Shown piece by piece: positions 4,991-18,764 of a stretch of DNA of 20,715 bases. The DNA is taken from the IMG/VR virus record IMGVR_UViG_3300032087_004141, positions 1 through 20,715 of that record; one strand, written 5' to 3'. Made by a program: the position numbers and the translations under genes. The DNA is from a virus. Every line of letters begins with the position of its first letter. The first letter of the stretch is position 1. Under the pieces are notes generated by a model. That model had not been told where the DNA came from. It did not search any database and worked only from the letters and a program-made list of their open reading frames with translations.

Positions 4991-5130
4991 TAGTCTAGCT
5001 TCTCTTGTACGTACTCGTAACCAGCTTTACCTTGGTCAATGACGTAGTTTGCAGTAGGTTGTACTACTTCTGTGAAGACACCGCCTAAGAGCGCAGCACC
5101 AACGACTACAGGGATTAAAAATTCGAACAT
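4990..5130 (-). CDS. 46-residue membrane protein
   Basis: A short open frame beginning MFEFLIPVVVGAALLGGVF, with a single membrane helix (about residues 4-22) and a polar tail ending in KLD. Its TAA overlaps the ATG of the next gene (TAATG), and its start lies 16 bases inside the end of the glutaredoxin gene. This fills what would otherwise be an unexplained gap in a fully packed operon. Single-helix proteins of this size are common in phages; a holin or envelope role is possible but unsupported. Confidence 0.75.
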   Translation of the reverse strand: MFEFLIPVVVGAALLGGVFTEVVQPTANYVIDQGKAGYEYVQEKLD

Positions 5131-5351
5131 GTTAGATACTCCTTGAGTTCTGTGTACCCTCCAATGTGCGTCCCCTTGTCATTGAAGATTTGTGGTACAG
5201 TAGTTATACTGGAACGCTTAAGTAAGTATAGCAACCATGCGCTAGACTTAGATTGTATATTGTACTCTACGTACTGAATACCCTTACCTTTCATAAAAGC
5301 TTTGGCATCATCGCAGAAGTTACATTGATCACGTGTTATTATCACGTACAT
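5115..5351 (-). CDS. glutaredoxin
   Basis: Small thiol-disulfide oxidoreductase of the thioredoxin fold, 78 residues. The active site is C10-N-F-C13, the cis-proline is in TVPQIF (P53), and the glutathione-binding Gly-Gly follows at HIGGY. All match ordinary phage and bacterial glutaredoxins. It lies two genes downstream of the class II ribonucleotide reductase, whose C-terminal cysteine pair must be re-reduced after each turnover, so it is the likely reductant (inference from context). A GGAG ribosome site precedes the ATG. The coding region overlaps the DUF1289 gene by 23 bases. Confidence 0.92.
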   Translation of the reverse strand: MYVIITRDQCNFCDDAKAFMKGKGIQYVEYNIQSKSSAWLLYLLKRSSITTVPQIFNDKGTHIGGYTELKEYLTCSNF

Positions 5352-5529
5352 CTTTTCTCCATTTCAGTTCGTGTAACAGTTTCTTTTGTTCGTACTCAGA
5401 CATTATCATCCAATCACGTATCTCGTCAACTGTTCTCTTACACCCCACACACTCGTCGTTTTCAAGGCGACATATACGTATGCAGGGTGAAGGTGTTTTA
5501 CCTAAGCGGTGAGGTCTACGATTTCGCAT
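5329..5529 (-). CDS. DUF1289 family protein
   Basis: 66 residues with the family pattern SPCIRIC, a CVGC pair and the TVDEIRDW segment. The four cysteines (16, 20, 27, 30) suggest a small metal or Fe-S site, but the biochemical role of the family is unknown. It is usually found in proteobacteria and in phages that infect them, sometimes beside redox genes. Here it sits between the reductase (28-base overlap) and glutaredoxin (23-base overlap), so a link to redox or metal supply for nucleotide reduction is a reasonable guess only. Confidence 0.85.
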   Translation of the reverse strand: MRNRRPHRLGKTPSPCIRICRLENDECVGCKRTVDEIRDWMIMSEYEQKKLLHELKWRKDVRDNNT

Positions 5530-7403
5530 GAGTCACCAGAGCAAGCCATTGTCTGCATGGCTACTGTGTTGTCCTCTTGCTCGTACTCAGAGAGCTTAGT
5601 CCAGTCTACGTTAGCTGGCATCTTAGCTAGTAGCTCTTCATACTCTTCTTTGGTGCAGTCCTGGTACGGTGCTTGCTGATAGGTATGATCTGAGTGTGGC
5701 AAAAATGACACACCTGACATCTCATCGAAGTACTTGTACACAAATGCACCTACCTCTAGCCACTCACTGTCACGGACTGAGATAGTCACAGATGGTTTAT
5801 GCTCACACCAATGACGCTGATACGTTAGCCACATCTCTAGCTGCTCAATAGCTGTCATATCATTACGTGTTACTGCACGATCAGGTGACTTCTGTGGGAA
5901 GCTAAACACGGTAGTGGTATCGCCCTTAAATACGCAAGGCTCATTAGGAATACCCTGATCAATCATCATCTGTGTTAGTGGGTCTTTGTTATCACCACGG
6001 ACAGTACGAATATAGTAGGGGCTATGACGAGCATGAATACCACTAGCGGAGTCAACCAGTTGCGATACTGTACCTGATGGTTTAACGCATGTGATCGAAG
6101 CAGAAGCAGGGATACCAAGGCGTTCAGCCCACTCAGCGTTAGTAGCAACAGCGATGGATCGTAGATGCTCAAGAGTTTTCTCCAGTCCTTTGTTCTTACT
6201 TGTTAGTAGAGGGTTGTCCATTATCCCTGTAAGAGACACGCCAAGCAACCTCTCTTCCTCAGTATTCTTCTGCCACACCTTTCGCAGGTATGGGAACTTT
6301 GTGAGGGTTGACTGGATTGTACCAAGGATCGTGGCAAGTTTGACTTTGCGTTCCAAATCCTCGATGGAATCTGTAGCACGTACCACACACTCAGTGAGAT
6401 TGCAGAACTGATAAGGACGCAGAATGATTTCACTACACGGATTCGTACCAAAGTCGAAATCAGGATTACGTCTACCAAACTTTGCCACTTGTTTCTTAGA
6501 TGCTTCACGGTTGAATACCCCACGCTCACCAGACTTAGACTCTACCAACGCAGTCCACTCACGCATGAATGTTTCTACGTCAGGCTTCTCAGTGTATGAC
6601 ACAGAGTTGTTAGCCAATGCACGATGCGCTGCAGTTTCCCACCACTGTCCTGACTTAGCGTGACGCATACGGTCATCACTTAGGTTGGACAATGAGATCA
6701 TCGCAGAGCGACGAACACCACCAACCACAACGATCTGCCCAATGAAACACATTAAGTCGTGACACTCTAGTGAGGATAGCTTACGTCCTTGTGCATTCTT
6801 AAACGTAGACACAGCGAAGTTAAACAGTTCAACCAAAGGCGCTGGACCTGATGCACGTCCACCGAATGTCTTTAGTCTAGCACCTGCAGGACGTACCTTT
6901 GATACGTTCCACTTAGGAATCTCACCAGCCCACAGGAGAGCAAGCACTTGACGGAAAGCCTTAGCCCACCCTTCTTTACTATCCCTAACCATGACGGTAG
7001 TTTCACTGTCGTAGAGCGTAGGCACTTCGGGGAGCTTCGATATGTACTGTCGTTCAACAGAGAAGCCGACTCCTGTACCACACAAGAGGATATACATCGC
7101 TTCGTCGAAGCTCTTAGGGTCATCTACGGGGAGATATGAACAGTTGTATCCTGCTGTGTTGTCACGCTCTAGTGCTGGACCTGCAGTCATCATAGCTCTC
7201 ATGGATGGCATGATGTCTAGGCTTAGAATAGCATCACGAATCTGATTGATGTAACTGTCGTCACCTGCTACAGGACGTACAACGTTATCCATGTAACGCT
7301 CTACTGTTTCATCCCAGTTCTCACGCCCCTTACCATCGAAGTACTTAGCGTAACGTGACTTGTGAATGAATGACTGATAGTCTGTTGGTAGTAAGTTGCT
7401 CAT
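5502..7403 (-). CDS. nrdJ: adenosylcobalamin-dependent (class II) ribonucleoside-triphosphate reductase
   Basis: Converts ribonucleotides to deoxyribonucleotides with a B12-generated thiyl radical. The 633-residue protein contains the substrate-reducing cysteine pair (C88 in YNCSY and C334 in QFCNLTE). The radical-site triad is in TNPCSEI (N321, C323, E325), and a C-terminal cysteine pair C621/C626 passes electrons in from a thioredoxin or glutaredoxin. These features match the monomeric RTPR type (Lactobacillus leichmannii enzyme), common in marine podoviruses. Class II needs no oxygen or iron but needs cobalamin from the host or its surroundings. ATGA overlap with MazG upstream; the end overlaps DUF1289. 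No intein or truncation seen. Confidence 0.95.
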   Translation of the reverse strand: MSNLLPTDYQSFIHKSRYAKYFDGKGRENWDETVERYMDNVVRPVAGDDSYINQIRDAILSLDIMPSMRAMMTAGPALERDNTAGYNCSYLPVDDPKSFDEAMYILLCGTGVGFSVERQYISKLPEVPTLYDSETTVMVRDSKEGWAKAFRQVLALLWAGEIPKWNVSKVRPAGARLKTFGGRASGPAPLVELFNFAVSTFKNAQGRKLSSLECHDLMCFIGQIVVVGGVRRSAMISLSNLSDDRMRHAKSGQWWETAAHRALANNSVSYTEKPDVETFMREWTALVESKSGERGVFNREASKKQVAKFGRRNPDFDFGTNPCSEIILRPYQFCNLTECVVRATDSIEDLERKVKLATILGTIQSTLTKFPYLRKVWQKNTEEERLLGVSLTGIMDNPLLTSKNKGLEKTLEHLRSIAVATNAEWAERLGIPASASITCVKPSGTVSQLVDSASGIHARHSPYYIRTVRGDNKDPLTQMMIDQGIPNEPCVFKGDTTTVFSFPQKSPDRAVTRNDMTAIEQLEMWLTYQRHWCEHKPSVTISVRDSEWLEVGAFVYKYFDEMSGVSFLPHSDHTYQQAPYQDCTKEEYEELLAKMPANVDWTKLSEYEQEDNTVAMQTMACSGDSCEIVDLTA

Positions 7404-7777
7404 CGGTTGTCCCCGCTTCCTCTTAGTTTGTTTCGTTTCTGTCTGTCGTCTAGCTTTTGAATGTTAAGCTCTAGCACTTCCTGCAGCCCACGTCCATAGA
7501 TGTTTGCTAGTGCAGTGGCATAGAATACCACATCACCTAGTTCCTTCATGATCTCTTCATTGGCATACTTGTTGTTGTCACGGATCAGCTTTTTGATCTT
7601 CTCCGCTACCTCACCTGCTTCCCCTACAAGACCAAGTGTATTCTCAACCAAACGTTCTTGTCCTTTGGTTAGAATCTTTTTCTCTACCCAACCTGAGTAT
7701 AGGTCAGCCCAGTCTACTTCATCACTGCCAAAGGCATCGAAGTACCCCATCTCTTCTAAGTCTTTCTCACTTATCAT
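7400..7777 (-). CDS. MazG-like nucleotide pyrophosphohydrolase
   Basis: 125 residues with the all-alpha NTP pyrophosphatase motif: E53-x2-E56 in GLVGEAGEVAEK and E79-x2-D82 in KELGD, which bind magnesium. The family removes pyrophosphate from NTPs or dNTPs. Phage copies were once thought to lower ppGpp and are now thought to degrade (d)NTPs, perhaps selectively. The substrate cannot be read here. It is directly upstream of the ribonucleotide reductase with an ATGA overlap, so it belongs to the nucleotide module. The first 40 residues are an N-terminal extension without a recognised domain. Confidence 0.88.
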   Translation of the reverse strand: MISEKDLEEMGYFDAFGSDEVDWADLYSGWVEKKILTKGQERLVENTLGLVGEAGEVAEKIKKLIRDNNKYANEEIMKELGDVVFYATALANIYGRGLQEVLELNIQKLDDRQKRNKLRGSGDNR

Positions 7778-7941
7778 CCTCGTTCCTTCACAACTAAGTT
7801 CTCTATTTCTACATCATCTACATCATGCATGGCATTTAGTATCAAGTCATGCATGTCTTCTTCGTGCGCATCTTCATAGGAAGACAGGAAGTTATTCTCT
7901 TCATCTACCTTAGCTACAAATGTAATGCTAAACTTTTTCAT
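7774..7941 (-). CDS. 55-residue phage protein of unknown function
   Basis: The frame starts MKKFSITFVAKVDEENNF and ends VKERG. It looks like a small beta-alpha protein with an acidic middle. Its ATG overlaps the DUF3310 stop and its TGA overlaps the MazG start, both as ATGA, so it exactly bridges two neighbours that would otherwise be 160 bases apart. No family recognised; a beta-strand start with VKERG-type end is seen in many small phage proteins. Confidence 0.8.
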   Translation of the reverse strand: MKKFSITFVAKVDEENNFLSSYEDAHEEDMHDLILNAMHDVDDVEIENLVVKERG

Positions 7942-8159
7942 TGATGTTTCTCTTTGTACACTTCAATTAGTTTATTCAGATACCACTCTGCCTTTTGTAA
8001 ATCCTCAAGGCCATTCTTGTAACGGTAACGCCAGATGTACTTCATTATGTTACCTTGTAGATACCCTTCACTCTGCTCATTAGTTGCAGCTAGGATAGCT
8101 TCAATAGCTTCAATACCACCTGTGTTATAGTGTATTGGTTTGTTTACTGGATCGTTCAT
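7938..8159 (-). CDS. DUF3310 family protein (SaV-like)
   Basis: 73 residues showing the family pattern: DPVNKPIHYNTGGIEAIEAI at the start, then NIMKYIWRYRYKNG and EDLQKAEWYLNKLI. The family is widespread in phages and is often found among nucleotide-metabolism and replication genes, as here; its activity is not known. Length and motif order are normal. ATGA overlaps join it to both neighbours. Confidence 0.9.
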   Translation of the reverse strand: MNDPVNKPIHYNTGGIEAIEAILAATNEQSEGYLQGNIMKYIWRYRYKNGLEDLQKAEWYLNKLIEVYKEKHQ

Positions 8160-8515
8160 GCACTACCCTCTGTCTTAGTCCATCTGTTAAGACGAATAAC
8201 GTTACCGTCTGCTTCGTAACCATCTTGTTCGTCTATCTCTTTTCGTGCTGCTTCATATGCATCAGGGAATATTTCTGATAACATACTCTCTTTGTACTCC
8301 ATAAGCTCGTCCTCAAAGTCAGGATAGTCTTGGATGAAAGGTAGACATGCTGCCATGCTGATAGCTGCGTTCAATGCTGCACGTCCTGCATCTTCGTAGT
8401 TACCTAGCTCATTACCGAAAGAGATAGCTGTCTTCAACTCATAAGTCCAGTCACCGTTGTCATCAAAGATAGGCTTAATAATGATAGCCACTTCATCTTC
8501 TTTTACCATATACAT
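8156..8515 (-). CDS. phage protein of unknown function
   Basis: 119 residues. The first 30 look like beta strands (EVAIIIKPIF, WTYELKTAISF), the middle is a helix rich in Ala and Met (AALNAAISMAACLPF), and the C-terminal half is acidic. No family recognised. The start overlaps the endonuclease I stop as TAATG and the end overlaps the DUF3310 start as ATGA. A second methionine two codons in is possible but the overlap favours the first. Confidence 0.75.
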   Translation of the reverse strand: MYMVKEDEVAIIIKPIFDDNGDWTYELKTAISFGNELGNYEDAGRAALNAAISMAACLPFIQDYPDFEDELMEYKESMLSEIFPDAYEAARKEIDEQDGYEADGNVIRLNRWTKTEGSA

Positions 8516-8952
8516 TACGCTCTCCGTTTTACTTTAAGTCGTTGCTCTTTAAGTCGGCTACCCTTCTCAAGCAACCACCCTTCAGGTATGACACGGTGCG
8601 CCCACTTGAAGTTATTCTTTTCACACCAATCACAATAGCGAGACTTGGCACCCTTGTAAAGCTTGGCGTTAGCGTTGCTGAATACAAAGCGAATGTCTAA
8701 CTTAGGGTGCTGCTTCTGTATTTCAAGGTGCTTGCGTCTATCTGCTGGACTGAAGATGCCTTTAGTTTCGATTATGATACCGTTGTCCAACTCAAAGTCT
8801 GGCGTGTATGTGCGGTACTTCAAGTCTTCCCATTCGATCTTCAGCTTCTCATAGGCTACAATCTTTTGGCGGGACTCCAAGAAAGTTGCGGCCTCTTGTT
8901 CGAGGCCACTACGATAAGTTCTTTTGTTATGTCTACGCGGCAAGACCATCAC
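8515..8952 (-). CDS. T7-type endonuclease I (Holliday junction resolvase)
   Basis: Resolves four-way junctions and branched DNA and in T7 (gp3) also helps degrade host DNA. The 145-residue protein aligns by eye along its whole length with T7 gp3: RSGLE, YTPDF, IIETKG, RKKHL-like RRKHLEIQKQHPKLDIRFVF, and the KLYKG/CEKN segments. The catalytic set is present as E18, D52, E62 and K64. It normally acts as a domain-swapped dimer. It follows the exonuclease with a 20-base overlap. The window also encodes an unrelated resolvase (endonuclease VII). Confidence 0.95.
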   Translation of the reverse strand: MMVLPRRHNKRTYRSGLEQEAATFLESRQKIVAYEKLKIEWEDLKYRTYTPDFELDNGIIIETKGIFSPADRRKHLEIQKQHPKLDIRFVFSNANAKLYKGAKSRYCDWCEKNNFKWAHRVIPEGWLLEKGSRLKEQRLKVKRRA

Positions 8953-9796
8953 CTATAAACACATAGTCTACCTCTGGTGGGTTAGCAGACTTAGAGACAC
9001 GACTTGGCAGCGTCTGTAATGTCTTGTGACACTTGTGTTTGAAGCTACAGAACTTACATGCGCTGGGTAGCACAAGGTTACCTGATGGCTTCTTGTAGTA
9101 AGTCTCTGGTACTGGCTCAAAGCAACGCTCAAAAGGTTCGTCGTTGTCAATGTAGTCCACTAGGTTTTGAATGTCCTGCAGTACAGCATCCTTGTCTACC
9201 TCAGATGCATCAACGTACTTAAACTCACCATTACCTTTGTTGACTACCCACCAACCACCAACATCTTTACCTGCTGCTGTAGCGTAGCCCACTAGCTGTG
9301 CGACATAGCCAAAGCTGTCACCCTTACTGAGTGACTCAAAGTCTTTGAACTTGTTTGTGAATGACCAAGGTGATGCAGACTTAACGTCATCAATCTTGCC
9401 ATCCATCTCCATGTCGTACTCGCCCTTGATCTCCTTACCATTAGCAAGCTTGAGTGTGACAACATCATTGTCTTTGAACTCAGCACCTGCTGCACGAAGC
9501 AATCCTTTGAACACCGCTTCAACGATGTCACCCAGGATCATGTTCATTAGGAAGTGGGGCGGCAGTGGTATCTTATCTTCAGGGTCATTCTTCTCAAACC
9601 ACAACTGGCACTTAGGCTTACCAATGTTAGACATACGTAGACGGAAGTCATCACGTGGTCCACTATTGAACTGTTTGTTAAGAGCAGCCTCAACATCAGC
9701 GGCAACCTGTTTGGTCACCGCCTCTGTCATGTTAGCCTCACCAGCCATAGCCTTTTGCAAGAAGCTAAAGACCGCTAGTTCTGCTGGATGATTCAT
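8933..9796 (-). CDS. Cas4/RecB-like PD-(D/E)XK exonuclease with probable Fe-S cluster
   Basis: 287 residues. The nuclease core shows a helix Glu in GDIVEAVF (E93), an Asp in MEMDGKIDD (D132), the D-V-K triad (D137, K139), and the Q-x3-Y motif in VAQLVGYA (Q167, Y171). Four cysteines, C63 near the N terminus and C247-x2-C250-x5-C256 near the C terminus, have the layout of the 4Fe-4S cluster of Cas4 and AddB. Such phage enzymes take the place of T7 gp6, trimming DNA ends for recombination or breaking down host DNA. It sits between the putative ssDNA-binding protein (TAATG overlap) and endonuclease I. No cas1/cas2 is near, so a CRISPR role is unlikely. Confidence 0.85.
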   Translation of the reverse strand: MNHPAELAVFSFLQKAMAGEANMTEAVTKQVAADVEAALNKQFNSGPRDDFRLRMSNIGKPKCQLWFEKNDPEDKIPLPPHFLMNMILGDIVEAVFKGLLRAAGAEFKDNDVVTLKLANGKEIKGEYDMEMDGKIDDVKSASPWSFTNKFKDFESLSKGDSFGYVAQLVGYATAAGKDVGGWWVVNKGNGEFKYVDASEVDKDAVLQDIQNLVDYIDNDEPFERCFEPVPETYYKKPSGNLVLPSACKFCSFKHKCHKTLQTLPSRVSKSANPPEVDYVFIGDGLAA

Positions 9797-10680
9797 TAGT
9801 CTACATCCACATCCACAAAGTCATTGTTGATAATGTCAGACACCATAGCGTCATCATCAGCAGACATAGACTTGTTGGCACGTTCATGGTGTAGATCAAG
9901 AATCTTACCGTTGCTGTACTCAATCAGTTCGATAAAGTCTTTCAGCATTTCGTTGTCACCTTCAACGATGTCAACCTTGTCACCAGTAGATGCACTGATC
10001 TTACCAAAGGTAGCACCAGTAGGAATGCTATCCTCAACACCTGCCAACTTGATAGTAGACATGATAGGTAGCATGTTCTTGCGCTTCAGTGCATTCATCA
10101 CACCGTTGATAGACTTCAGTGAGTCACGGTTCTTAACATCCATGACGAATGGAATGTCACGATATGTTTCATAGTCTAGTGCTTCACCCTTCTCATTGAC
10201 AGGGTTATCCAAAGACACTGTGCCGTAGTAAACATTGACACGCTTCACGCTACGGATGACTTGCTTAGTTGCATCAGGTAGTGCGTTAAAGTCTTCAATC
10301 CAACCAGACGGACGCCCTAAGTTGAACCCACCAATGCTGTCCTTCATGTCACCGTTAAGTGAGTTAGCTAAGACAGACTTCTCCATCTCTTCAGTCTCAC
10401 TGTTCCAACGCTGCCACTGCTGGCGCTGGGCAAAGATACGCACGGTGATACCATCACTGTACACTTTCTCTTCGCCACGTGTAAGGATGAACGCACCAAC
10501 AGATACAACATCTGTCTTGATCATCTTACCGTTGACTTCGATCTCACCTTTGAGTGGTGAGTGTAGCATACCAATACGTGCAATGCTTGGGGTAGCATCA
10601 CCGCCACCAGACATTGACACACCCATTAGCTCAGCCATTGATTGACCACGCTCTTGTGCTACTGCTAGTTCTGTACTCAT
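9796..10680 (-). CDS. putative phage ssDNA-binding protein
   Basis: 294 residues with beta-rich stretches through the middle (e.g. EIEVNGKMIKTDVVSVGAF) and a very acidic C-terminal tail ending DFVDVDVD. An acidic tail is typical of single-stranded DNA-binding proteins such as T7 gp2.5 and bacterial SSB, which use it to contact polymerase and helicase. The place between DNA polymerase and recombination nuclease matches gp2.5. I do not see a clear OB-fold signature, so the call rests on tail and context. It has its own strong-looking promoter (10714-10741) and an AAAGG ribosome site, fitting a protein needed in high amounts. Confidence 0.55.
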   Translation of the reverse strand: MSTELAVAQERGQSMAELMGVSMSGGGDATPSIARIGMLHSPLKGEIEVNGKMIKTDVVSVGAFILTRGEEKVYSDGITVRIFAQRQQWQRWNSETEEMEKSVLANSLNGDMKDSIGGFNLGRPSGWIEDFNALPDATKQVIRSVKRVNVYYGTVSLDNPVNEKGEALDYETYRDIPFVMDVKNRDSLKSINGVMNALKRKNMLPIMSTIKLAGVEDSIPTGATFGKISASTGDKVDIVEGDNEMLKDFIELIEYSNGKILDLHHERANKSMSADDDAMVSDIINNDFVDVDVD

Positions 10681-10713
10681 TTCTATACCTTTCGATAGAG
10701 TTAAAGATGCTTA

Positions 10714-10741
10714 GTTATAGCTCAAACATCAACTGTGTCAA
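10714..10741 (-). promoter_or_regulatory. near-consensus sigma70 promoter upstream of the putative ssDNA-binding protein
   Basis: On the minus strand a perfect -35 box TTGACA (10741-10736) is followed after 16 bases by TATAAC (10719-10714), five of six matches to the -10 consensus. The -35 lies inside the last codons of the DNA polymerase gene; the -10 lies in the 41-base gap 10681-10721, the largest gap in the gene train. Transcription would begin near 10707 and give a short leader containing GAAAGG before the ATG at 10680. Confidence 0.65.
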
Positions 10742-12770
10742 GCCAATTCGGTCCTATCTTTGCCTCAAGTAAGAGAGGCACATTCATCTTGATACCATAC
10801 CTATCTTCTACCAAATCGTTGATACCATTGTTAAGTAGTTGAATGATATGTAGTACCTTTTGTTCTTCGTCAGGATGTACGTCTACTACCATACTGTCAT
10901 GCACTGAGTTGACTACACAGGATTGTAACGGTTGTAACAATTCGTGAAGTCTATTGAGTACGACAGGTACGACATCACCTGTGGCAAAGCCCTGCACGGG
11001 GTAGTTCTTGATCATGGTAAAGTGACTAGGCATACCATTGTCTCTGCGTTTACAGTCAGGGAAAGCATATTGTCTGCCAGAGATGTTAGTGATCTTCTGG
11101 AAACGTATTGCCTCTTCTCCTAGGTTCTTGTGCCACGCCGCTACTCCTCTGTATTTTTCGACGAAGTGATGGTAATAGGCGGCTTCAGCTTTTGAACGTC
11201 CAAATCCAGTGGCTCCAAAGAGGGGAGCGAAGGTGTGCGCCTTTGCTTCCTGGCGGGACGTTTGTTGCCCTGCTTCAGTAATGACTTTCGCTGTGTACGA
11301 GTGTACGTCAAACCCTGTTGCGATTTCTTCCATTGCCGTTTCGTCCTGCGCGAGGAACGCTGCGGTTCTGAATTCGAGTTGGGCAAAGTCTGCCTCCATA
11401 ATTTTGCCACCGTCCCAACGAGATACAAACACCTTCTTCACAGGGAATGTACCACCGCGTGGCATGTTTTGCATGTTAGGGTTACGTCCACTAAAACGTC
11501 CTGTGGCAGTGATGTGTTGGGTTAACCCTACGTGTAAGAAACCATCGTGCTTTGTGTAGTTAGCGATACCTTCTACAAAAGAACTAAGATAAGAACTAAT
11601 AGCAGAGAGGCGTTTAAGATCAGCGAGAAAGTTTGCAGCGTCAGCCATCCCACGGTTTTTAGCAGTCGCTTCCAACGACTCAAGGTTACCCTTGCTTGTA
11701 CTAAAACCATTCGCGCTAACCCAATCTTTACTTGGGGCTGTGAACTTGAGTCCCGCGACTTGAGATGTTTCTTCCAGTCTGAAGCCACGTGCTTCGCAGT
11801 CCTTACATTTGTTCGGTTTGGCATACTTTGTCCCATCCTTCCTTACTTTATACGTTTTCCCTTGCCCTTCACACGTAGGACAGGTGTAAGCTTTAGTGCG
11901 GTAGATCGTTTCACTATTCGCTTCGACTGCTTCTTTGAATTCTTGAACAGTTGATGTATAGTCAAATATTTCTTTCCACTCCCCCTTATTCTTAATGCGT
12001 TTAGAGAAGACGACTTGTGACATCTGCTCAGGCGAATTAAGATTGATAGGGGTCGCGCCCATAAGTTCCCTGACTTTGATTTGCAGACGCGCTTCGATCT
12101 CTGCTTTCTCTTTCTCAAACTCATGTCTTACTTGCTCCAAGACTTGAAGATCGACTCTGATTCCTGACATGTACATTTGGGTAAGGGTTCGACAGGTATC
12201 AAAGGTTGTATCTCTAATGGTGTGGAGAGAGGTGCTGTCGGGTTTGGCGTAGTCGGCTTCGATAGCATGGAACAATTCGCTAGTAGTAAGAAGGTCATGC
12301 CGCAGATAAAAGGTAAGCTCTTTGAGCGGTATCTCGTTGACGTTGTACCCTTCTTTGAAGTAGCGTTTAAGTGTATCATCTTTCTGTACCTCTAGTTGTC
12401 TGCGCTCAGCACATGCTGCCAAGCTAAGGGGTGACCGCTGTCCACGATCAAGCACATACTCCGCTAACATGGTGTCATATATTTTACCATCATACTTGTA
12501 GCCTGATTCCCACAGCCACATAAGATCGTGCTGTGCGTTGTGCATTATCAACAGCGTTGTCTGATCTAAGACTTGCTGTATAAACTTACGCCCCTTGCCT
12601 GTCGTATCCTTTGCCTCGTCATGGTTAAGGTTAACAATCCACCGCTGCTTATGATCGTCAGCGTTAAGCATACCCACCTGTACTAGCTCATTGCTAGGCT
12701 CGAAGGGGTCCATGTGATCCTTGCCATTACGTTTTGTGACGCTGTTCTCTACGTCTAGTACTACTCTCAT
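10722..12770 (-). CDS. family A DNA polymerase with DnaJ-like zinc insert
   Basis: Replicative phage polymerase, 682 residues. A 3'-5' proofreading domain comes first (D6 and E8 in LDVEN, HNAQHD at 77-82, Asp in YLRHDLL at 159). The polymerase domain follows: TGRFSGRNPNMQNMPRGG (423-440), motif A Asp461 in MEADFAQLEFR, the O helix RQEAKAHTFAPLFG (506-519), and motif C HDS at 624-626. The O helix has Phe at both positions matching E. coli 762 and 766. Between exonuclease and polymerase, CPTCEGQG (297-304) and CKDCEARG (322-329) form a DnaJ-type zinc pair. I recall such a central DnaJ-like part as a mark of HMO-2011-type marine podoviruses. The gene follows helicase by eight bases. Confidence 0.95.
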   Translation of the reverse strand: MRVVLDVENSVTKRNGKDHMDPFEPSNELVQVGMLNADDHKQRWIVNLNHDEAKDTTGKGRKFIQQVLDQTTLLIMHNAQHDLMWLWESGYKYDGKIYDTMLAEYVLDRGQRSPLSLAACAERRQLEVQKDDTLKRYFKEGYNVNEIPLKELTFYLRHDLLTTSELFHAIEADYAKPDSTSLHTIRDTTFDTCRTLTQMYMSGIRVDLQVLEQVRHEFEKEKAEIEARLQIKVRELMGATPINLNSPEQMSQVVFSKRIKNKGEWKEIFDYTSTVQEFKEAVEANSETIYRTKAYTCPTCEGQGKTYKVRKDGTKYAKPNKCKDCEARGFRLEETSQVAGLKFTAPSKDWVSANGFSTSKGNLESLEATAKNRGMADAANFLADLKRLSAISSYLSSFVEGIANYTKHDGFLHVGLTQHITATGRFSGRNPNMQNMPRGGTFPVKKVFVSRWDGGKIMEADFAQLEFRTAAFLAQDETAMEEIATGFDVHSYTAKVITEAGQQTSRQEAKAHTFAPLFGATGFGRSKAEAAYYHHFVEKYRGVAAWHKNLGEEAIRFQKITNISGRQYAFPDCKRRDNGMPSHFTMIKNYPVQGFATGDVVPVVLNRLHELLQPLQSCVVNSVHDSMVVDVHPDEEQKVLHIIQLLNNGINDLVEDRYGIKMNVPLLLEAKIGPNWLDTVDV

Positions 12771-12778
12771 GTCTCACC

Positions 12779-14002
12779 TCATGCTGAATAGATAGAGCGT
12801 GACCCATCTAACATACAGGTAATCTTCCCTTGGAATCCATTCAGTTTATTCTTAGCTAGGTTGAGGTAACGAACTGGGTCTTCATCCTCACCCTCTGCTT
12901 GTTGTGTCTTACCAATGAGGATCATTAGGTCAGCCTCTGCGGCCTTGCCTGTCTTTGATCCTTCCATCATAGCTTGGTTTAGGTCAGCCTTACCTTCAGC
13001 TTCTGCTGATAGCTGCGACATCCAGATCACACAACAGTCATACTGCTTAGCAATGTTACGTGCATGGATGGCAGCAGCCTTGAGCGTGATGTCGCTACGC
13101 TCACTACTAATATCAGCGAACTTGTCACCCATGTCAAGCACTACGATGTCAGGCTTCTCTTGTTTAACCACAGCCTCAACCCATGCCATACCCTTACCTG
13201 TACTATCCTTGAACATCACGTTCTTACGGACAGCCTCATAGCGTTTATGTGCTAGGGCTTTGTTCTCACGTACCTCAGTCATAGTCATGTTGGCAGAGGC
13301 ACTGATGTACCGTGCAGCCACACGTGTGTATGCTTCCTCATTACACAGCACGATACACTTGGCACCCTGATGTGCAAACCCTTCAGCCCCTGCTAGTAGA
13401 GAGGCATGGAAAGAAGTTTTACCAGTATTGGGACGAGCGCCAACCAACACAAGATGACCACCGCTAACGCCTTCAACCCTTCGGGCGAGTGAGGAGATGT
13501 TGAACTTGAATCGCGATTCCAGAAGCGTGGCATCAAGTATTGTGTCAAGGCTATTGTCATCCCAGTCAACACGAAGATTAGGAGTAAAGTCATCTTTGAA
13601 ATCCTCTAATAGTTTACGCAGTGGTTCAAGACTGCTCTCTGTACCGTTAACAAAGTCGAAACCAAGGTTAGCAACCTGATCACCGACATACTGTTGAAAC
13701 ATTTGTGATAGTGCATCTTGTGCTATCTCTTCTTTGATAGGCTCAATAATCTCTAGACGCTTGAACAGATCGTCGTAGGCACCACGTGTAGCTGTGGTCA
13801 TGCTTGCGTTCATGCGGTTGAACACAGCATGTAAGTCAGCAACAGTTAGGTCTACGTACTCATACGCTTCCATCGCTGCGTCAAGGGATTGCTTGATCTT
13901 ACGCACGTCCTTGGTAAAGATTTTGTCAGGGCATTTGATACCCTTGTGTCTGTCGTAAAAGTCACGATTCAGTAGCGTCTTAACTAGAGCTAGTTCCATC
14001 AT
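12779..14002 (-). CDS. DnaB-like replicative DNA helicase
   Basis: RecA-fold hexameric helicase, 407 residues. The C-terminal motor has Walker A GARPNTGKT (188-196), Walker B with D290 in PDIVVLD, and a sensor-like WMSQLSAEAEGK segment (about 327-338). The N-terminal half (1-160) is helical and has no zinc-binding or primase motif, so unlike T7 gp4 this helicase is separate from the primase, which is encoded three genes upstream. It would unwind DNA ahead of the polymerase. Two ATGs are adjacent; AGGAG nine bases upstream fits the first. The start overlaps the small membrane protein by 23 bases. Confidence 0.9.
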   Translation of the reverse strand: MMELALVKTLLNRDFYDRHKGIKCPDKIFTKDVRKIKQSLDAAMEAYEYVDLTVADLHAVFNRMNASMTTATRGAYDDLFKRLEIIEPIKEEIAQDALSQMFQQYVGDQVANLGFDFVNGTESSLEPLRKLLEDFKDDFTPNLRVDWDDNSLDTILDATLLESRFKFNISSLARRVEGVSGGHLVLVGARPNTGKTSFHASLLAGAEGFAHQGAKCIVLCNEEAYTRVAARYISASANMTMTEVRENKALAHKRYEAVRKNVMFKDSTGKGMAWVEAVVKQEKPDIVVLDMGDKFADISSERSDITLKAAAIHARNIAKQYDCCVIWMSQLSAEAEGKADLNQAMMEGSKTGKAAEADLMILIGKTQQAEGEDEDPVRYLNLAKNKLNGFQGKITCMLDGSRSIYSA

Positions 14003-14177
14003 CGTCTGTGTCTCCTGTTAGTATCTTCCAATAAACTTCCAACGCTGCCAAGGGCCACATCAATGCGAACCGCATAGGCGCACCTGTATCTTCCTCATCT
14101 ACTGGTGACGCTAGATAGCGTAGGAAAGGTATCGCAAACAGATATGTAAATGCAACCCCATATAAAAAATTAATCAT
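13980..14177 (-). CDS. small two-helix membrane protein
   Basis: 65 residues with two likely membrane helices (about residues 4-21 and 36-53) separated by an acidic loop, and a polar Asp/Ser-rich tail. No family recognised. Its start overlaps the preceding gene by eight bases (ATGATTAA) and its end overlaps the helicase start by 23, so it is part of the same transcript. Possible roles include anchoring of replication or a holin-like job; neither is supported by a motif. Confidence 0.65.
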   Translation of the reverse strand: MINFLYGVAFTYLFAIPFLRYLASPVDEEDTGAPMRFALMWPLAALEVYWKILTGDTDDDGTSSS

Positions 14178-14412
14178 TGCTGTTCTTCTTTGCTCGTTCC
14201 ATCGCAGCCTTACGTTCTTCTTGTGTGAAGGGTAGGATTGATTTAGTTTTGTAGTTCACAACCACGCCTGTGTTCCAACGTGAAGCTTCTTCTTCTGCTG
14301 CTTTCTTAGTGCTGAATATCTTAGGTGCAGGGTGGTTAAGAAACCCATGTGTATTCTCAGGGACATACATCCAATCGCCATCAACGTCTATCATTACTGC
14401 ATACTGTATCAT
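14170..14412 (-). CDS. phage protein of unknown function
   Basis: 80 residues beginning MIQYAVMIDVDGDWMYV: a beta-strand start, a short hinge and a Lys/Glu-rich helical C terminus. The start at 14412 is chosen because its ATG overlaps the primase stop as ATGA and AGGAG lies 11 bases upstream. An ATG nine bases earlier (14421) would sit only two bases from that AGGAG. Similar short proteins with a D-G-D-W strand are frequent in marine phages, but I know of no function. Confidence 0.7.
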   Translation of the reverse strand: MIQYAVMIDVDGDWMYVPENTHGFLNHPAPKIFSTKKAAEEEASRWNTGVVVNYKTKSILPFTQEERKAAMERAKKNSND

Positions 14413-15200
14413 CTTCCACATAGCTCCTGTAAGTTTTCCATATCCTCTGGCATACGGTATTTGATATCATCAGATAAGCTCAGGGCTTTAGCTTGCTTAC
14501 CTGTCCATAGTTCTATCTCTCTGCGGTACTCAATCGTCTTACCTACTGCATCAGGATCAAGGGCTATGACCGATTGGTTATACTCACCTATCTTTTCAAA
14601 GTGTTTATGATTCATAGTGGTACCCAAGATAGCCATACAGGTAACATCTGATAGCTCTTGGTATGCTACGATAGCAGAGATAACATCCTCAACAATCAGC
14701 ATCGTTGAGCCATCACCAATAGTGTAGTAGTCGGCAGCACCAGTATAGCGATACCACTTGGGTTGCTTGCGTGTACCAACTGCACGTCCTACTGCATCAA
14801 TCATTCTACCCTTGTGATAGATAGGAAAGACAACACGCTCTTGCTGTACATCGTAGTACGTACCACCGACGATACCCCAACGGCGCATGAATCGGTTGTG
14901 CTTAGTGTGCTGTGGTGTAGGTATAACTAACTGAGCAGGTAGTTCCATTGTCTCTATCTCTTTAGGTGTGTTGTCATTAGCAGGGCGTAAGTGTCTGCGT
15001 ATCTCAGCAGCAGTCATGTCTGTATCAAACACGCCACCTACATCGCAGCCTAGCTTGTAACAGTTATACTTAAGTTGCCCTAGTTCGCAAGTAGCAGAGA
15101 AAGTATTTTTGCCATTGCAGAATGGACAGTCACCACGGTATGGGCCTTGGGATGAGACAGACTCAGCGTACTCTCTGTGTAGTTTCCATTTACTCTTCAT
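14409..15200 (-). CDS. DNA primase (zinc ribbon plus TOPRIM)
   Basis: Makes RNA primers for replication. The 263-residue protein has an N-terminal zinc-binding part (CPFC at 25-28, then C47 and C52 in NCYKLGC) like T7 gp4. A TOPRIM domain follows with the conserved Glu in LIVEDVISA (E171) and the D-x-D in IALDPDA (D215, D217). There is no helicase domain; the separate helicase gene lies downstream. An ATG at 15200 with AAGGA nine bases upstream is preferred; a GTG one codon earlier is possible. The start overlaps the AT-rich orphan gene by 11 bases. Confidence 0.9.
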   Translation of the reverse strand: MKSKWKLHREYAESVSSQGPYRGDCPFCNGKNTFSATCELGQLKYNCYKLGCDVGGVFDTDMTAAEIRRHLRPANDNTPKEIETMELPAQLVIPTPQHTKHNRFMRRWGIVGGTYYDVQQERVVFPIYHKGRMIDAVGRAVGTRKQPKWYRYTGAADYYTIGDGSTMLIVEDVISAIVAYQELSDVTCMAILGTTMNHKHFEKIGEYNQSVIALDPDAVGKTIEYRREIELWTGKQAKALSLSDDIKYRMPEDMENLQELCGR

Positions 15201-15894
15201 CACATAGGTTCCTTTTTATTTCACGCAAAAGATTCTTATGTATTTTGTTTCTAGTAAACATGTCATATAACGTGCGTAATGGTGTGTTAGATTGTATTTG
15301 TTTAAAGCTACCTGTCATATCATTTACTTGCTCTGTATAAGTAGTAGCATTGAACTGTACTAAATTAACAGGGCAATCAAACTTAATGTATAAGCATGGT
15401 TCTCCTGCGTTTACGATAAGCTTATCAATAGAGTCAGGCAATGTGAAAGCAGGGCTAAGTAGCCTAAACCATTTAGAGATATCATAAGTACCTGCTGCAC
15501 CTGGATAAGTATTAGCGTGAAGATAAGGCGGTGTCATTGTTAAGTTAGCAGGTTGGTCACTAAAAAAATTATAACCATAGAATTCGTGCATTTGAACTGG
15601 CTGATCTCCATCAACACATACCCATCTGTCTCTTTGGGTGTAGCTTTGCTGGTTTTTACTGTAGGGAGACACCCTTATAACGTTTGCATTTCTGTCTCTT
15701 TCAAACAGTATGCTGTAAGGTGTTCTAATTAAATAAGTATTTTTAATTGTACTAATTAACGAGGGGCATCTTACAAGTTGACTGAAGAAAGGATCACCTT
15801 TAATTGCTGTGACCAAAGGTTCTAATCCATAGTCGCATAAATGTTGTAGGGTGTGAGGCTTCGTTGCCCAGTATACATTAGTCTTCTTCATCAC
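15190..15894 (-). CDS. phage protein of unknown function, AT-rich
   Basis: 234 residues, soluble, rich in Tyr, Phe, Pro and Asn with many predicted beta strands; it begins MMKKTNVYWATKPHTLQHL and ends RNLCDEE. I do not recognise a characterised family, though similar proteins with an N-terminal VYWA strand and an NTYLIRTPYSI-like strand occur in marine phages. Base composition is noticeably more AT-rich than the primase and integrase genes beside it, suggesting a separate history. It overlaps the integrase end by 17 bases and the primase start by 11, so it is fully built into the transcript. No catalytic motif seen. Confidence 0.75.
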   Translation of the reverse strand: MMKKTNVYWATKPHTLQHLCDYGLEPLVTAIKGDPFFSQLVRCPSLISTIKNTYLIRTPYSILFERDRNANVIRVSPYSKNQQSYTQRDRWVCVDGDQPVQMHEFYGYNFFSDQPANLTMTPPYLHANTYPGAAGTYDISKWFRLLSPAFTLPDSIDKLIVNAGEPCLYIKFDCPVNLVQFNATTYTEQVNDMTGSFKQIQSNTPLRTLYDMFTRNKIHKNLLREIKRNLCDEE

Positions 15895-16789
15895 TACCTC
15901 TTGCTGCTAGTGCTTTAGTTGCACCGCTTAATGTGTTGACCATGTAGGGTTTTACTGACTGGATGTTCTTGTGTCCTGTCACCTGCATGATGTTCGCTAA
16001 GTCAACGCCCCCTTCCATCATCTCAGTCACAGCAGTACGGCGTAAGTCCATAGCTGTAAGTTCAAGTGGTAGGTTAGCTTCATCTAGTACCTCATTGATA
16101 AGATGAGATATTTCTTGTTTGTCGTAAGGTGTATATGCCCCAGCGCGTGGCTTAATACGCGGTGCTACATAGTCCTGGAATCCAAAGTCTTCCTTCTGTT
16201 GACGCAGCATGTCACACAACCCAGTGGAAATCGGGAGGTGTACCTCTGCGTTGCGCTTAGATTGTGTAAGGTCAAGTTGGCAACCAACTAAATCCAACTT
16301 GTCCCACTTTAGTACACGCATGTCACCGACACGCTGACCCCAATCGTAGGCCATGTGTACTATCAATCCTATGCTGCGCCAACGGAAGTCACTGTAAGCA
16401 GTCTCAAGGAATGACTGAACATGATCACGTTCCCATAGTGTGCGGCGAGGAGACACCGACTCAGTTTGTACGAGTGCTACAGGGTTGTGGATCATCACGT
16501 CATAACGCATAGCGTTTTTCCATGCCGCCGAAAGCACGGACTTACGATAGTTAGCAGTACGTACACCGACAGTTAGCCACTGTTCATACGCTTGTGTAAG
16601 ATGACGCACCTTGATTTTGCTACAGCGATATTCCCCAAGGTCTTTGCCCTCAACAGATGTGTTGAGTACTGCAATAAGATGTACTTCATAGTCGCGCTGG
16701 GAGGATGCGCTGAGCCTACGAAACGCAGGGGAAAGGAAATAAAAACCTACGATCTCACTTAGTTTGGCATTGCCCTTGGGGATATTCAT
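15878..16789 (-). CDS. int: tyrosine recombinase / phage integrase
   Basis: 303 residues with the start used here. An N-terminal SAM-like core-binding part (about 1-100) is followed by the catalytic domain. Catalytic residues visible are R153 (GQRVGDMR), K178 (SKRNAEV), R250 in MDLRRT, H273 in TGHKN and Y282 in VKPYM. The box usually written HxxR reads MDLR, so the first His is Met; other phage integrases also vary here. The start at 16789 lies one base after the preceding stop and has AAGGAG 11 bases upstream. An upstream in-frame ATG at 16858 has no ribosome site and would run 67 bases into the previous gene. The next gene overlaps its end, leaving no space beside it for a separate attachment site. 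Confidence 0.9.
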   Translation of the reverse strand: MNIPKGNAKLSEIVGFYFLSPAFRRLSASSQRDYEVHLIAVLNTSVEGKDLGEYRCSKIKVRHLTQAYEQWLTVGVRTANYRKSVLSAAWKNAMRYDVMIHNPVALVQTESVSPRRTLWERDHVQSFLETAYSDFRWRSIGLIVHMAYDWGQRVGDMRVLKWDKLDLVGCQLDLTQSKRNAEVHLPISTGLCDMLRQQKEDFGFQDYVAPRIKPRAGAYTPYDKQEISHLINEVLDEANLPLELTAMDLRRTAVTEMMEGGVDLANIMQVTGHKNIQSVKPYMVNTLSGATKALAARGSDEED

Positions 16790-16790
16790 A

Positions 16791-17030
16791 TTACCATTGT
16801 CTCCTTGTTTTCCAGTAGGACCAGCAATGATTGCAATGATCCTTACCGAATACTCCATCTATAAGCCATACGATATTAGGCTTACCGTTTCTTCTCCACT
16901 CCCAGTTCCTCGCTGAGAATGTCTGATTTAGATTGCCCCCTAGAATCACGTTTGTCAAGACGCTCAGTGCTATCGCTATCCGTTTTAGGTAGCTTACCAA
17001 TCCAGTGGGTAATGTCATCATGCGGGTCAT
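16791..17030 (-). CDS. conserved small phage protein with N-terminal membrane segment
   Basis: 79 residues starting MTRMMTLPTGLVSYLKR, with a hydrophobic stretch (about 18-30) and then GGNLNQTFSARN, KPNIVWLID and FGKDHC. This NQTFSARN...VWLID...DHC pattern recalls small proteins found near replication genes in many phages; function unknown. The reading frame is open to 17135, but the ATG at 17030 overlaps the stop of the 27-residue peptide gene as ATGA, so the shorter start is preferred. The TAA is one base before the integrase ATG, and the integrase ribosome site lies in its last codons. Confidence 0.75.
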   Translation of the reverse strand: MTRMMTLPTGLVSYLKRIAIALSVLTNVILGGNLNQTFSARNWEWRRNGKPNIVWLIDGVFGKDHCNHCWSYWKTRRQW

Positions 17031-17110
17031 CCATCTTTGTAGAATCTGTAACATGCGTACACCCAGAATATTATGTAGATGAATGCCACCGCCAAGGGTA
17101 GGCTGTGCAT
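17027..17110 (-). CDS. 27-residue membrane peptide
   Basis: A tiny frame beginning MHSLPLAVAFIYIIFWVYAC and ending FYKDG: one membrane helix with a short positively then negatively charged tail. Its ATG overlaps the preceding stop (TAATG) and its TGA overlaps the next start (ATGA), so both ends match neighbouring genes exactly. It is far below usual gene-calling limits. Function unknown. Confidence 0.65.
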   Translation of the reverse strand: MHSLPLAVAFIYIIFWVYACYRFYKDG

Positions 17111-17292
17111 TAGAACATTGGATACCATACTTCACCTCTATTTATTGCTTCCTTAACAGGCGCAGCCTCACGTTCTAGCTGCTTACCTTTTTCGTTATCG
17201 CCTCGCCAGTATGCATCATCAGCACACTTCATAAGCCAATCAAAATGCTTCTGTGATGGGACCACTCGTTGGTCTTTGTGCAACATATTCAT
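17110..17292 (-). CDS. small charged phage protein
   Basis: 60 residues, helical and highly charged; a core reading QRVVPSQKHFDWLMKCADDA followed by RGDNEKGKQLEREA, ending WYPMF. The frame opens with TTG at 17298 and ATGs at 17292 and 17286; GGAG ten bases before 17292 favours that start. It begins inside the previous gene (about 53 bases of overlap), more than elsewhere in the train, so the start is less certain. No family recognised. Confidence 0.6.
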   Translation of the reverse strand: MNMLHKDQRVVPSQKHFDWLMKCADDAYWRGDNEKGKQLEREAAPVKEAINRGEVWYPMF

Positions 17293-17425
17293 TCTCAATC
17301 ATCTCCACCTTAGCACGTGACCACTGTGAGTCACGCATGTCTTCTGCTGCTTTCTTGTTGTTAGTGTTGTAGTAAGCAAAGAGCTTACCTGTTTTGTCAT
17401 AGAAGTTAATGCGATACTTAGTCAT
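17240..17425 (-). CDS. small phage protein of unknown function
   Basis: 61 residues starting MTKYRINFYDKTGKLFAYY, a beta-hairpin-like start, then a helical KKAAEDMRDSQW segment and a polar tail. The ATG at 17425 overlaps the preceding stop by eight bases (ATGACTAA) and has a purine-rich AAGAGG in front. A longer reading from 17467 would add a Lys/Arg-rich stretch inside the previous gene and is less likely. No family recognised. Confidence 0.65.
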   Translation of the reverse strand: MTKYRINFYDKTGKLFAYYNTNNKKAAEDMRDSQWSRAKVEMIENEYVAQRPTSGPITEAF

Positions 17426-17915
17426 CCTCTTCTTCCTCTTGCCACTCTTTCCAGTTCTCATACTCATTGTCTAAGTCCCAATCGTCAATCAAGTCTTGTG
17501 GGATATTGTCTGCCCAATCCTCTTCACTGAAGTCAATATCAAAGCTACGATCTGTACCTAAACCACTGTCGTACTCACCAATAAAGCACATACCTGGTTC
17601 GTAGTAGCTTGCTTCAATGTGCATGTCTTCATGTTCTGAAGTGTAGTTGTCATAGGCTGTAGTGGGTGGTCCCCATGCTGTGTCAAAGTTTAGGCTTAGT
17701 ATGTCGCCCTCTAAGTCAGCATAGGCTTCACCTGCGTCCCACTTAGTACCCCAGTTTTCTAGTCGCCATGAGTACCAAGACTGATCGTCAAGATATTCTT
17801 TAGGCATAGGCACCATGTGCTGTAGCATCTCACCATTGTTTACTGCTTCTAGGATAGCCTTGAGTTTGTCAGGGTTACCCTTGATAGTCAGGCTATTCAT
17901 ACACCAGTTAGGCAT
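17418..17915 (-). CDS. DUF1281 / YubB ferredoxin-like family protein
   Basis: 165 residues. It shows the family start MPNWCMNSLTIKG, a VPMPKE segment and the NWGTKWD motif (about 54-60), then DTAWGPP. Members are found on plasmids and phages and adopt a ferredoxin-like fold; they are often near other transfer or early genes and have no proven activity. The C-terminal 40 residues are strongly acidic. The ATG at 17915 overlaps the preceding stop as TAATG, so the five extra upstream residues possible from 17930 are rejected. Confidence 0.85.
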   Translation of the reverse strand: MPNWCMNSLTIKGNPDKLKAILEAVNNGEMLQHMVPMPKEYLDDQSWYSWRLENWGTKWDAGEAYADLEGDILSLNFDTAWGPPTTAYDNYTSEHEDMHIEASYYEPGMCFIGEYDSGLGTDRSFDIDFSEEDWADNIPQDLIDDWDLDNEYENWKEWQEEEEDD

Positions 17916-18166
17916 TACGAAACCCTCCACACACGATAGTCGTCACCCGCATTGAGTCGCCGTGCTGTTACCTTGACACCTAAATCCTTGGCAGCTTTGC
18001 GTAGCATACCACACTTGGATAGTGTCAGTACCACACTGTCACCCTTAGTCATGTTGGCAATGAGTGCCTCATACTTTTGAGTGCGCTTGCGTCCACGATT
18101 CCATGCAGGGATTGGGACGTTCTGTTGAATCACGAACTCGCCATTGTATTTAAACTTAGCCATCAT
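17915..18166 (-). CDS. small basic phage protein
   Basis: 83 residues starting MMAKFKYNGEFVIQQ, with a basic RGRKRTQKYEAL region, SKCGMLRKAAKDLG and a strand-rich end DYRVWRVS. The layout (short helices between strands, net positive charge) is compatible with nucleic-acid binding but no family is recognised. The start at 18166 overlaps the previous stop as ATGATG with AAGGAG close upstream; a longer start at 18193 is not needed. TAATG overlap with the DUF1281 gene. Confidence 0.7.
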   Translation of the reverse strand: MMAKFKYNGEFVIQQNVPIPAWNRGRKRTQKYEALIANMTKGDSVVLTLSKCGMLRKAAKDLGVKVTARRLNAGDDYRVWRVS

Positions 18167-18405
18167 TTGTCTCCTTCTAACTTGGCTTTCCATTTAGCAC
18201 CATGAATAGTGCGCTCAGGGTAGGACTCAGTGTTGCGTCCGTTGTTGATCTGTTCACGCGCCCACGTCCATGAGATACCATAGTAACGTGCGGCCTCTGC
18301 AATACTGCGAAAGTCTTTGCCATACAGTCGGCATGTTGTGCCTTGCTTCTTGCGTGTGGGTTCGTGCTTGATGCGTTGATACATTGGTAGGTGTTTAGGT
18401 TGCAT
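18163..18405 (-). CDS. small HTH-type putative DNA-binding protein
   Basis: 80 residues, basic. The segment FRSIAEAARYYGISWTWARE (about 33-52) reads as a helix-turn-helix: a helix, the turn YYGIS, then a recognition helix. This resembles the NUMOD1-type modules seen in phage and homing-endonuclease proteins, but no nuclease motif is present. It may regulate early genes or act on DNA; the target is unknown. TAATG overlap with the gene before it. Confidence 0.6.
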   Translation of the reverse strand: MQPKHLPMYQRIKHEPTRKKQGTTCRLYGKDFRSIAEAARYYGISWTWAREQINNGRNTESYPERTIHGAKWKAKLEGDK

Positions 18406-18764
18406 TAGTCCATCCGTGTTACATAATAGCCATTGGCTGTGGGTAGTGCTGTGATAGCGTAAGGGTAGAACAATGCTATCTTGCCATCATGCATAGTGAC
18501 TTGCCCATAGGGTGCAAGCGGTTCATCATCCTCATATGAATACTCTTGTGTGTCAGGATCAACGACACCCTTGAACTCAAAGAGATCACCGAAACCGTAT
18601 GCCTCTGTCATGTAGTCCACAAGTGTACCATCATAGGCACCTACCTTGGACATGAGATCATACTGGGCAACCCACATAGGTAGGATGCCACACGCTTCTT
18701 GTAACCACGCAGGGTCAGTGTCAGGGTATGCCTTAGTGTTGACTGTAAAGATTGATGTTCCCAT
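18405..18764 (-). CDS. phage protein of unknown function
   Basis: 119 residues starting MGTSIFTVNTKAYPDTDPAW, acidic, with a long middle YDGTLVDYMTEAYGFGDLFEF and a strand-rich C-terminal part (VTMHDGKIALFYPYAI). No family recognised and no membrane segment. TAATG overlaps at both ends fix the reading frame and its place in the transcript. Confidence 0.7.
   Translation of the reverse strand: MGTSIFTVNTKAYPDTDPAWLQEACGILPMWVAQYDLMSKVGAYDGTLVDYMTEAYGFGDLFEFKGVVDPDTQEYSYEDDEPLAPYGQVTMHDGKIALFYPYAITALPTANGYYVTRMD

Follow-up and report, generated by a model that had tools for sequence, protein, structure and literature searches.

The DNA polymerases of HMO-2011-type phages are described as carrying a DnaJ domain with two CXXCXGXG motifs (PMC9038755 and PMC6918029, which both call it partial, and PMC8528129, in the available portions of these papers), and the first and last of these sources use the domain as a criterion for the HMO-2011 group, whose phages are reported there as dominant and broadly distributed (PMC9038755). 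The GenBank record of HMO-2011 also lists PF00684 in the note to its polymerase. Here we analyse the corresponding cysteine pair in a family A DNA polymerase encoded by the IMG/VR virus record IMGVR_UViG_3300032087_004141 (20,715 bases), the whole of which is called the window hereafter. The polymerase, P0001, has 682 residues, lies at 10722..12770 on the minus strand and was recognised by open reading frame (ORF) calling, by a Pfam DNA_pol_A match of 3.5e-50 and by its closeness to isolate polymerases, the closest three being those of CRP-207 (80.1% identity), CRP-603 (72.6%) and CRP-2 (71.4%), with 57.0% identity to that of HMO-2011. The trait itself is already known, as the original prediction on this DNA had stated, and that prediction was also right in calling its role unsettled: the only hint, in the part of PMC9038755 at hand, is that DnaJ in lambda replication is mentioned alongside the description of the domain. 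What is new here is its exact position, its conservation and its charge, and no title or opening of an abstract in the literature searched assigns the module to the thumb or reports a test of it.

The first motif, CPTCEGQG, occupies residues 297-304 (11859..11882, minus strand) and is a strict CxxCxGxG, while the second, CKDCEARG, occupies residues 322-329 (11784..11807, minus strand) and reads CxxCxAxG. Read directly from the sequence, the pair comprises C297, C300, C322 and C325 together with G302, G304 and G329, and its halves are joined by a basic hairpin of residues 305-321 (KTYKVRKDGTKYAKPNK; 11808..11858, minus strand) delimited by alignment conservation and charge count. The residue numbers first proposed for both motifs are correct, as is the wording CxxCxxxG for the second; the DNA interval proposed with them, 11795-11885, fell on the right region with the wrong extent, clipping the second motif, and the true span of the pair is 11784-11882. 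As had also been claimed, the pair lies between a 3'-5' exonuclease domain (residues 66-171; 12258..12575, minus strand; PF01612, E=8.7e-6, 26.1 bits, exceeding the cut-off of 23.6) and the polymerase domain (residues 352-677; 10740..11717, minus strand; PF00476). Pfam DnaJ_CXXCXGXG (PF00684) matches residues 292-332 with E=6.4e-4 at 20.4 bits, and a fragment of the protein at 23.3 bits, both under the gathering cut-off of 32.7; across the 86 HMO-type rows of our alignment A4 (mean column identity 47%, one outgroup row added) the same family matches 86/86 at E<=1, with 4.6e-7 as the best value. These matches support the reading of the pair as one of DnaJ type, and its four cysteines are 100% conserved in the 86 rows. 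A chance origin was discarded, given that shuffling P0001, which has 8 cysteines, produced any C..C-(10-60)-C..C arrangement in 54/200,000 trials and the glycine pattern as well in 0.

Relatives were gathered from seven scans of viral contigs, one scan of genome contigs and named phages, and they constitute a sample, five of the seven viral scans having kept the best 80 loci out of at least 600 candidates each. The HMO-type profile was matched by 594 ORFs, 398 of which have at least 550 residues and were counted; the 196 shorter ones left out include partial contigs and split polymerase halves, 10 with the pair and 186 without. Among ORFs of at least 550 residues, a C..C-(10-60)-C..C pair is present in 329/329 that score 682 or more against the HMO profile and in 0/69 that score 358 or less, the score ranges of the two sets being disjoint. 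Dropping identical ends leaves 293 distinct polymerases with the pair and 68 without. The pair spans 29 residues in 278/293 of the former and 41 residues in 15/293, the longer span arising in the CRP-738 polymerase (L091:95-2242) from 12 extra, largely basic hairpin residues between the cysteine pairs. Both motifs are strict CxxCxGxG in 171/293, and a strict first motif followed by a relaxed second one, as in P0001, is found in 110/293. In the insert region of the 86 rows, glycines 313, 329, 340 and 355 are among the positions that are 100% conserved, and lysine or arginine occupies positions 262, 291 and 360 in 100% of rows, position 308 in 99%, position 310 in 94% and position 321 in 88%.

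A search of the 115-residue thumb tip against 50,697 phage records recovered 12 HMO-type records (11 phages, HMO-2011 twice), and beyond the HMO group only three others, at E 3-5, none of them annotated as a polymerase. Foldseek against viral models gave 194 matches at E<=10; the best 50 listed contain none named as a polymerase and several small unnamed or DnaJ-like phage proteins, many of the entries having no name; no weight is given here to absences in fold searches. A quick tree was built from columns filled in at least 70% of rows, the insert being thereby outside the data. P0001 joins CRP-207 and CRP-603 in it with a Shimodaira-Hasegawa-like approximate likelihood ratio test (SH-aLRT) value of 100, and the trait needs one change, all 35 rows with the pair falling on one side of a branch, but the support of that branch is 72 only. 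Of the 48 pair-less rows outside the clade of polymerases like that of Stenotrophomonas phage StenR_269, only 12 were entered; these are the lowest-scoring ones, T7 among them, and Percy and others form long branches. HMO-type polymerases were also found in contigs of bacterial and archaeal metagenome-assembled genomes (MAGs) and of a single-cell-style assembly (L216-L225); since two MAGs assigned to different phyla share the contig name MHASMcontig_807657, the contigs in question probably stem from phages and were binned together with host genomes.

The insert belongs to the thumb, in agreement with the original prediction. Its upstream boundary is the motif INLNSPEQMSQVVFSK of residues 242-257 (12000..12047, minus strand), which abuts the insert, aligns to Bst FNINSPKQLGVILFEK and T7 FNPSSRDHIQKKL and corresponds to the thumb helix that we take to be H1. 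The whole insert of the H1-H2 thumb-tip loop, as placed by the model, the alignment and the profile, covers residues 258-342 (11745..11999, minus strand). On the contrary, the proposed coincidence with the thioredoxin-binding loop of T7 polymerase was not borne out. In a position profile of 67 polymerases lacking the cysteine pair, column 300 is followed by the T7 insert (T7 residues 259-329), which precedes the H1 motif FNPSS at residue 334. The P0001 insert (residues 257-339 in this profile), like those of HMO-2011, HTVC033P, CRP-3 and CRP-738, opens only after column 320, and in P0001 it is preceded by the H1 motif INLNSPEQMSQVVFS. Homology with the thioredoxin loop was ruled out by this alignment, according to which the T7 and HMO-type inserts occupy adjacent loops of one subdomain at different sites. 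When T7 and Percy alone were forced into a global profile alignment with the HMO rows, the H1 motif fell opposite T7 residues around WYQPKGGTEM and the thumb was confused. Taken alone, this result blurs the difference; the 67-row profile, which sets T7 FNPSS opposite INLNSP, was preferred.

Where T7 has its insert of 79 residues, 11-17 are present in the HMO-type group. The loop from H1 to the next helix measures 96-126 residues in HMO-type polymerases (median 108; 285 rows) and 20-47 residues (median 21; 20 rows) in StenR-like ones, which are the nearest pair-less relatives found. In 62 MEP402-like polymerases it measures 51 residues, with CxxC in 0/62.

An AlphaFold2 model of P0001, based on 87 aligned rows and read out as scores and secondary structure, reached a mean predicted local distance difference test (pLDDT) of 92.7 and a predicted template modelling score (pTM) of 0.86, with 10-residue blocks between 85 and 93 across residues 261-340. 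Taken as a whole, the model resembles Bst polymerase, with a best Z of 34.4 and 531 residues aligned. Within the insert, helices are predicted at 262-271 and 275-284, followed by strands at 290-296 and 330-338 that flank the cysteine pairs; when residues 243-362 are folded as an isolated fragment, these elements recur (pLDDT 89.7). In the PDB this fragment comes closest to DnaJA2, anti-TRAP and BSD2 and then to UvrA, while a second list also includes lambda Q and E. coli DnaJ. A profile search with the fragment puts E. coli DnaJ first (1exk, E=0.0048), aligned to motifs 2-3 in our own numbering. The insert is confidently modelled as a two-stranded stem topped by a four-cysteine knuckle. Its predicted secondary structure and its weak fold matches are in keeping with a closed zinc knuckle, in which, as we infer, the four cysteines coordinate a single zinc ion.

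With these elements, the reading that we tentatively prefer, and to which we would give a little less than an even chance, is that a zinc-stapled basic hairpin extends the grip of the thumb on DNA. The insert of ~83 residues at the thumb tip would consist of two short helices, a long two-stranded stem and a single four-cysteine knuckle, from which a short hairpin rich in lysine and arginine would project. Zinc would staple this otherwise floppy hairpin, allowing it to lie against the backbone phosphates of the duplex as this emerges from the active site, or against those of the nearby template, and DNA affinity and processivity would rise without any added subunit. Besides the conservation of the cysteines, the place of the insert, its modelled fold and its charge, such a grip is favoured by (i) the conserved lysines and arginines, (ii) the precedents offered by truncation of the E. 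coli Pol I thumb, which makes the enzyme less processive and less accurate (PMC10061031, citing Minnick 1996, in the part available), and by plant organellar polymerases, whose thumb insertions, one of them lysine-rich (insertion 1), have been modelled touching duplex DNA (PMC7699545, likewise in part), and (iii) the mostly basic insert of MEP402-like polymerases. The latter sits in the same loop and is devoid of CxxC, which suggests that what these polymerases share is charge at the thumb tip, with zinc as one means of stiffening it.

Charge counts document how basic this region is. Over the 86 rows, net charge has a median of +8 for the zinc module (residues 286-342; range +1 to +13), of +5 for the stretch 301-321 and of -2 for the whole polymerase. 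The tip loop carries net +6 or more in 285/285 HMO-type polymerases, and the MEP402-like loop net +2 or more in 60/62.

Several observations nevertheless weigh against a grip on DNA. StenR-like tip loops are positive too (median +2, with 13/20 at +2 or more), as are those of the other 47 pair-less rows (median +3, with 31/47 at +2 or more), and charge per residue amounts to 0.113 in the zinc loop versus 0.096 in StenR-like, 0.088 in MEP402-like and 0.154 in the other loops. Relative to its length, the zinc loop does not surpass the pair-less loops taken together in basic character; its larger charge is due to its greater length, which lowers our confidence in the DNA-grip reading as well as in that of a built-in clamp considered below. 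The fragment is matched weakly in the fold searches (Foldseek E no better than 0.18, Z at most 4.4), as expected for so small a module, and acidic protein tails could be bound by a basic surface just as well as DNA.

Substitution rates bear on the same point. Nonsynonymous (dN) and synonymous (dS) rates between P0001 and relative L003 are 0.050 and 0.282 for the module and 0.047 and 0.526 for the rest of the gene, and against L005 they are 0.062 and 0.530 for the module and 0.108 and 0.646 for the rest. Against L008 and L010, which gave identical values, and against CRP-207, the module has a higher dN than the rest (0.161 vs 0.114 and 0.197 vs 0.134, respectively). As dS of the module is saturated in 3/5 comparisons (L008, L010 and CRP-207), the usable dN/dS ratios are 0.177 and 0.117 for the module and 0.089 and 0.167 for the rest. 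At the level of sequence, these values point to purifying selection on the module, neither clearly stronger nor weaker than on the remainder, and its dN pattern fits a partner interface at least as well as a DNA contact.

The best rival to the DNA grip is indeed that the basic zinc hairpin docks the acidic C-terminal tail of a replication partner, with the product of the next downstream gene as first candidate; we regard this as a possibility to be taken seriously, although a doubtful one. That gene (9796..10680, minus strand) encodes an unannotated protein of 294 residues with an acidic C-terminal tail, a candidate single-stranded DNA-binding protein (SSB). A downstream ORF was found at 235/329 loci (205 distinct), and the last 20 residues have net -5 or lower in 159/205 distinct downstream proteins and -3 or lower in 202/205, with the reservation that these 205 are relatives of one another and no independent cases. 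By comparison, 5/64 annotated genes (at least 60 residues, hand-picked from three HMO-type phages) reach -5, and two of those 5 are the downstream gene itself, which leaves 3/61 other genes. A precedent exists in T7, whose SSB contacts the polymerase via the thioredoxin-binding domain and the SSB C-terminal tail, according to the part of PMC7699545 available. The T7 thioredoxin-binding domain is also basic, with net +6, yet it sits in a different loop in the profile alignment. Acidic tails are common in SSBs, which tempers what may be concluded from the tail, and the downstream protein itself gave only single weak Pfam matches, no PHROG at E<=0.001 and no solved relative at E<=10; 1/34 of its family members weakly resembles an SSB PHROG (E=0.086).

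A bolder form of the DNA grip would hold that a small DnaJ-type zinc protein, such as phages also encode by itself, was inserted once into the thumb-tip loop and became a built-in clamp, a zinc-stapled finger holding the duplex and rendering the polymerase processive alone, where T7 borrows thioredoxin. We consider this version unlikely. If true, it would be, within the literature searched, the first DnaJ-type zinc module known as a polymerase clamp. More generally, the placement of the trait in the thumb-tip loop, next to the T7 thioredoxin loop, and its basic, strictly conserved character turn the label "partial DnaJ domain" into a testable statement on how the polymerase stays on DNA, for a trait that serves as recognition mark of a marine virus group called dominant in the accessible text of PMC9038755. 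Such a hold on DNA, if true, would represent a compact, single-chain route to processivity.

The zinc knuckle might instead play a purely structural role, merely stabilising a long thumb-tip loop and making no contact of its own. Such a role would agree with the invariance of the cysteines and several glycines in the 86 rows, with the variability of the inner glycine of the second motif, which restricts two strict motifs to the 171/293 polymerases mentioned above, and with the tolerance of the 41-residue spacing in 15/293. We nonetheless find it distinctly improbable, considering that the basic residues at 262, 291, 360, 308 and 310 are conserved too and that the nearest relatives manage with a loop of 20-47 residues.

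Two further partners are less likely than docking of an acidic tail. One is a phage or host glutaredoxin or thioredoxin that would bind the cysteine module as thioredoxin does on T7 polymerase. A glutaredoxin-like gene does lie in the window (5115-5351), with relatives in at least 6 of 11 HMO-type isolates among the best 40 of 1203 records; no glutaredoxin is annotated, however, in the viewed parts of the HMO-2011 and HTVC033P genomes, whose polymerases keep the pair. Invariant paired CxxC motifs with their glycines form the pattern of a metal site and the T7 thioredoxin site is a different loop, so that this redox link appears very improbable. The least credible proposal has the partial DnaJ module bringing host DnaK to the replication fork, since DnaJ acts on DnaK only through its J domain and none is found among the six Pfam matches of P0001 at E<=10, even though the two motifs align best to motifs 2-3 of E. 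coli DnaJ (1exk, by our reading of the numbering) and lambda replication has been brought up beside the domain in the literature cited above.

Regarding the surroundings of the gene, the record is chimeric by look: positions 1-3064 have 23-32% GC and cellular-type genes (named from ORF text only), and 3064-20715 are mostly 39-51% GC and phage. The phage ORF at 3058-4170 covers only residues 781-1143 of CRP-207 gp39 (1148 residues), which places the junction of the chimera inside a gene, at a distance from the integrase at 15878-16858. On the structural side, this gp39-relative fragment is the only element identified in the window, capsid and terminase genes of the HMO-2011 group not having been searched for. 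Within the polymerase domain, the motif KAHTFAPLFG (residues 510-519) displays a Phe that we match, presumably correctly, to E. coli Pol I Tyr766. This position is Phe in P0001, CRP-207, CRP-2 and CRP-738, and Tyr in the remaining 7 of 11 aligned polymerases.

Among known zinc modules, the DnaJ cysteine-rich domain (PF00684) shares the CxxCxGxG spacing with P0001, whose fragment aligns to two of the E. coli DnaJ motifs. That domain contains four CxxCxGxG motifs and two zinc sites, whereas P0001 has two motifs, scores under the family cut-off and shows no J domain in the Pfam search. Anti-TRAP (RtpA) has two CxxCxGxG motifs only, forming one zinc site, and the Pfam Anti-TRAP family matches 54/86 rows at E<=1, with fragment Z values of 3.4-3.6 (2.7 for 2zp9). 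It is, on the other hand, a free-standing small protein with a shorter stretch between motifs (profile 11-36 vs query 296-332), and NCBIfam RtpA gives 15.2 bits against a cut-off of 65. The fragment also matches in fold two proteins that handle DNA, UvrA and lambda Q (Z 3.4 or less), the parts matched being, we assume, zinc modules; they are unrelated proteins, linked in sequence by weak profile rows only.

Among polymerases, those of MEP402 and Saratov-12 (both Zobellviridae) and of Alcaligenes phage QDWS535, whose record gives no family, have an insert in the same H1-H2 loop, but devoid of CxxC and, in the 62 MEP402-like relatives, less than half as long as the HMO-type median (51 vs 108 residues). 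As a separate observation, the polymerases of MEP402 (L096), Saratov-12 (L094) and QDWS535 (L093) are split into two genes shortly past the NPNLQN region, the two parts being separated by a 77-residue ORF in MEP402. In plant organellar polymerases, insertion 1 is likewise a lysine-rich thumb insertion bearing on DNA handling, the available part of PMC7699545 mentioning no zinc pair in it; the likeness is one of description. T7 gp5 is, like P0001, a phage family A polymerase whose thumb holds a basic insert (net +6 in T7), and differs in lacking CxxC and in having the insert ahead of H1 (column 300) instead of after it (column 320), so that P0001 departs from the T7 type, defined by an insert between thumb helices H and H1. 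The closest systems remain the HMO-2011-type phages (HMO-2011, CRP-1, CRP-2, CRP-207, HTVC033P and others), which share with the window the same polymerase architecture of exonuclease, partial DnaJ and polymerase domains and the same gene order of primase, helicase, polymerase, endonuclease and ribonucleotide reductase, with small genes interspersed. Read literally, the rule of two CXXCXGXG motifs fails for P0001, and CRP-2 and CRP-345 (CxxCxAxG) and CRP-207 (CxxCxTxG) deviate at the same place, the CxxCxAxG second motif being common to P0001, CRP-2 and CRP-345. No difference of substance separates P0001 from these polymerases, and domain order, the motifs as applied by the papers on the group and tree grouping all assign it to the HMO-2011 type.

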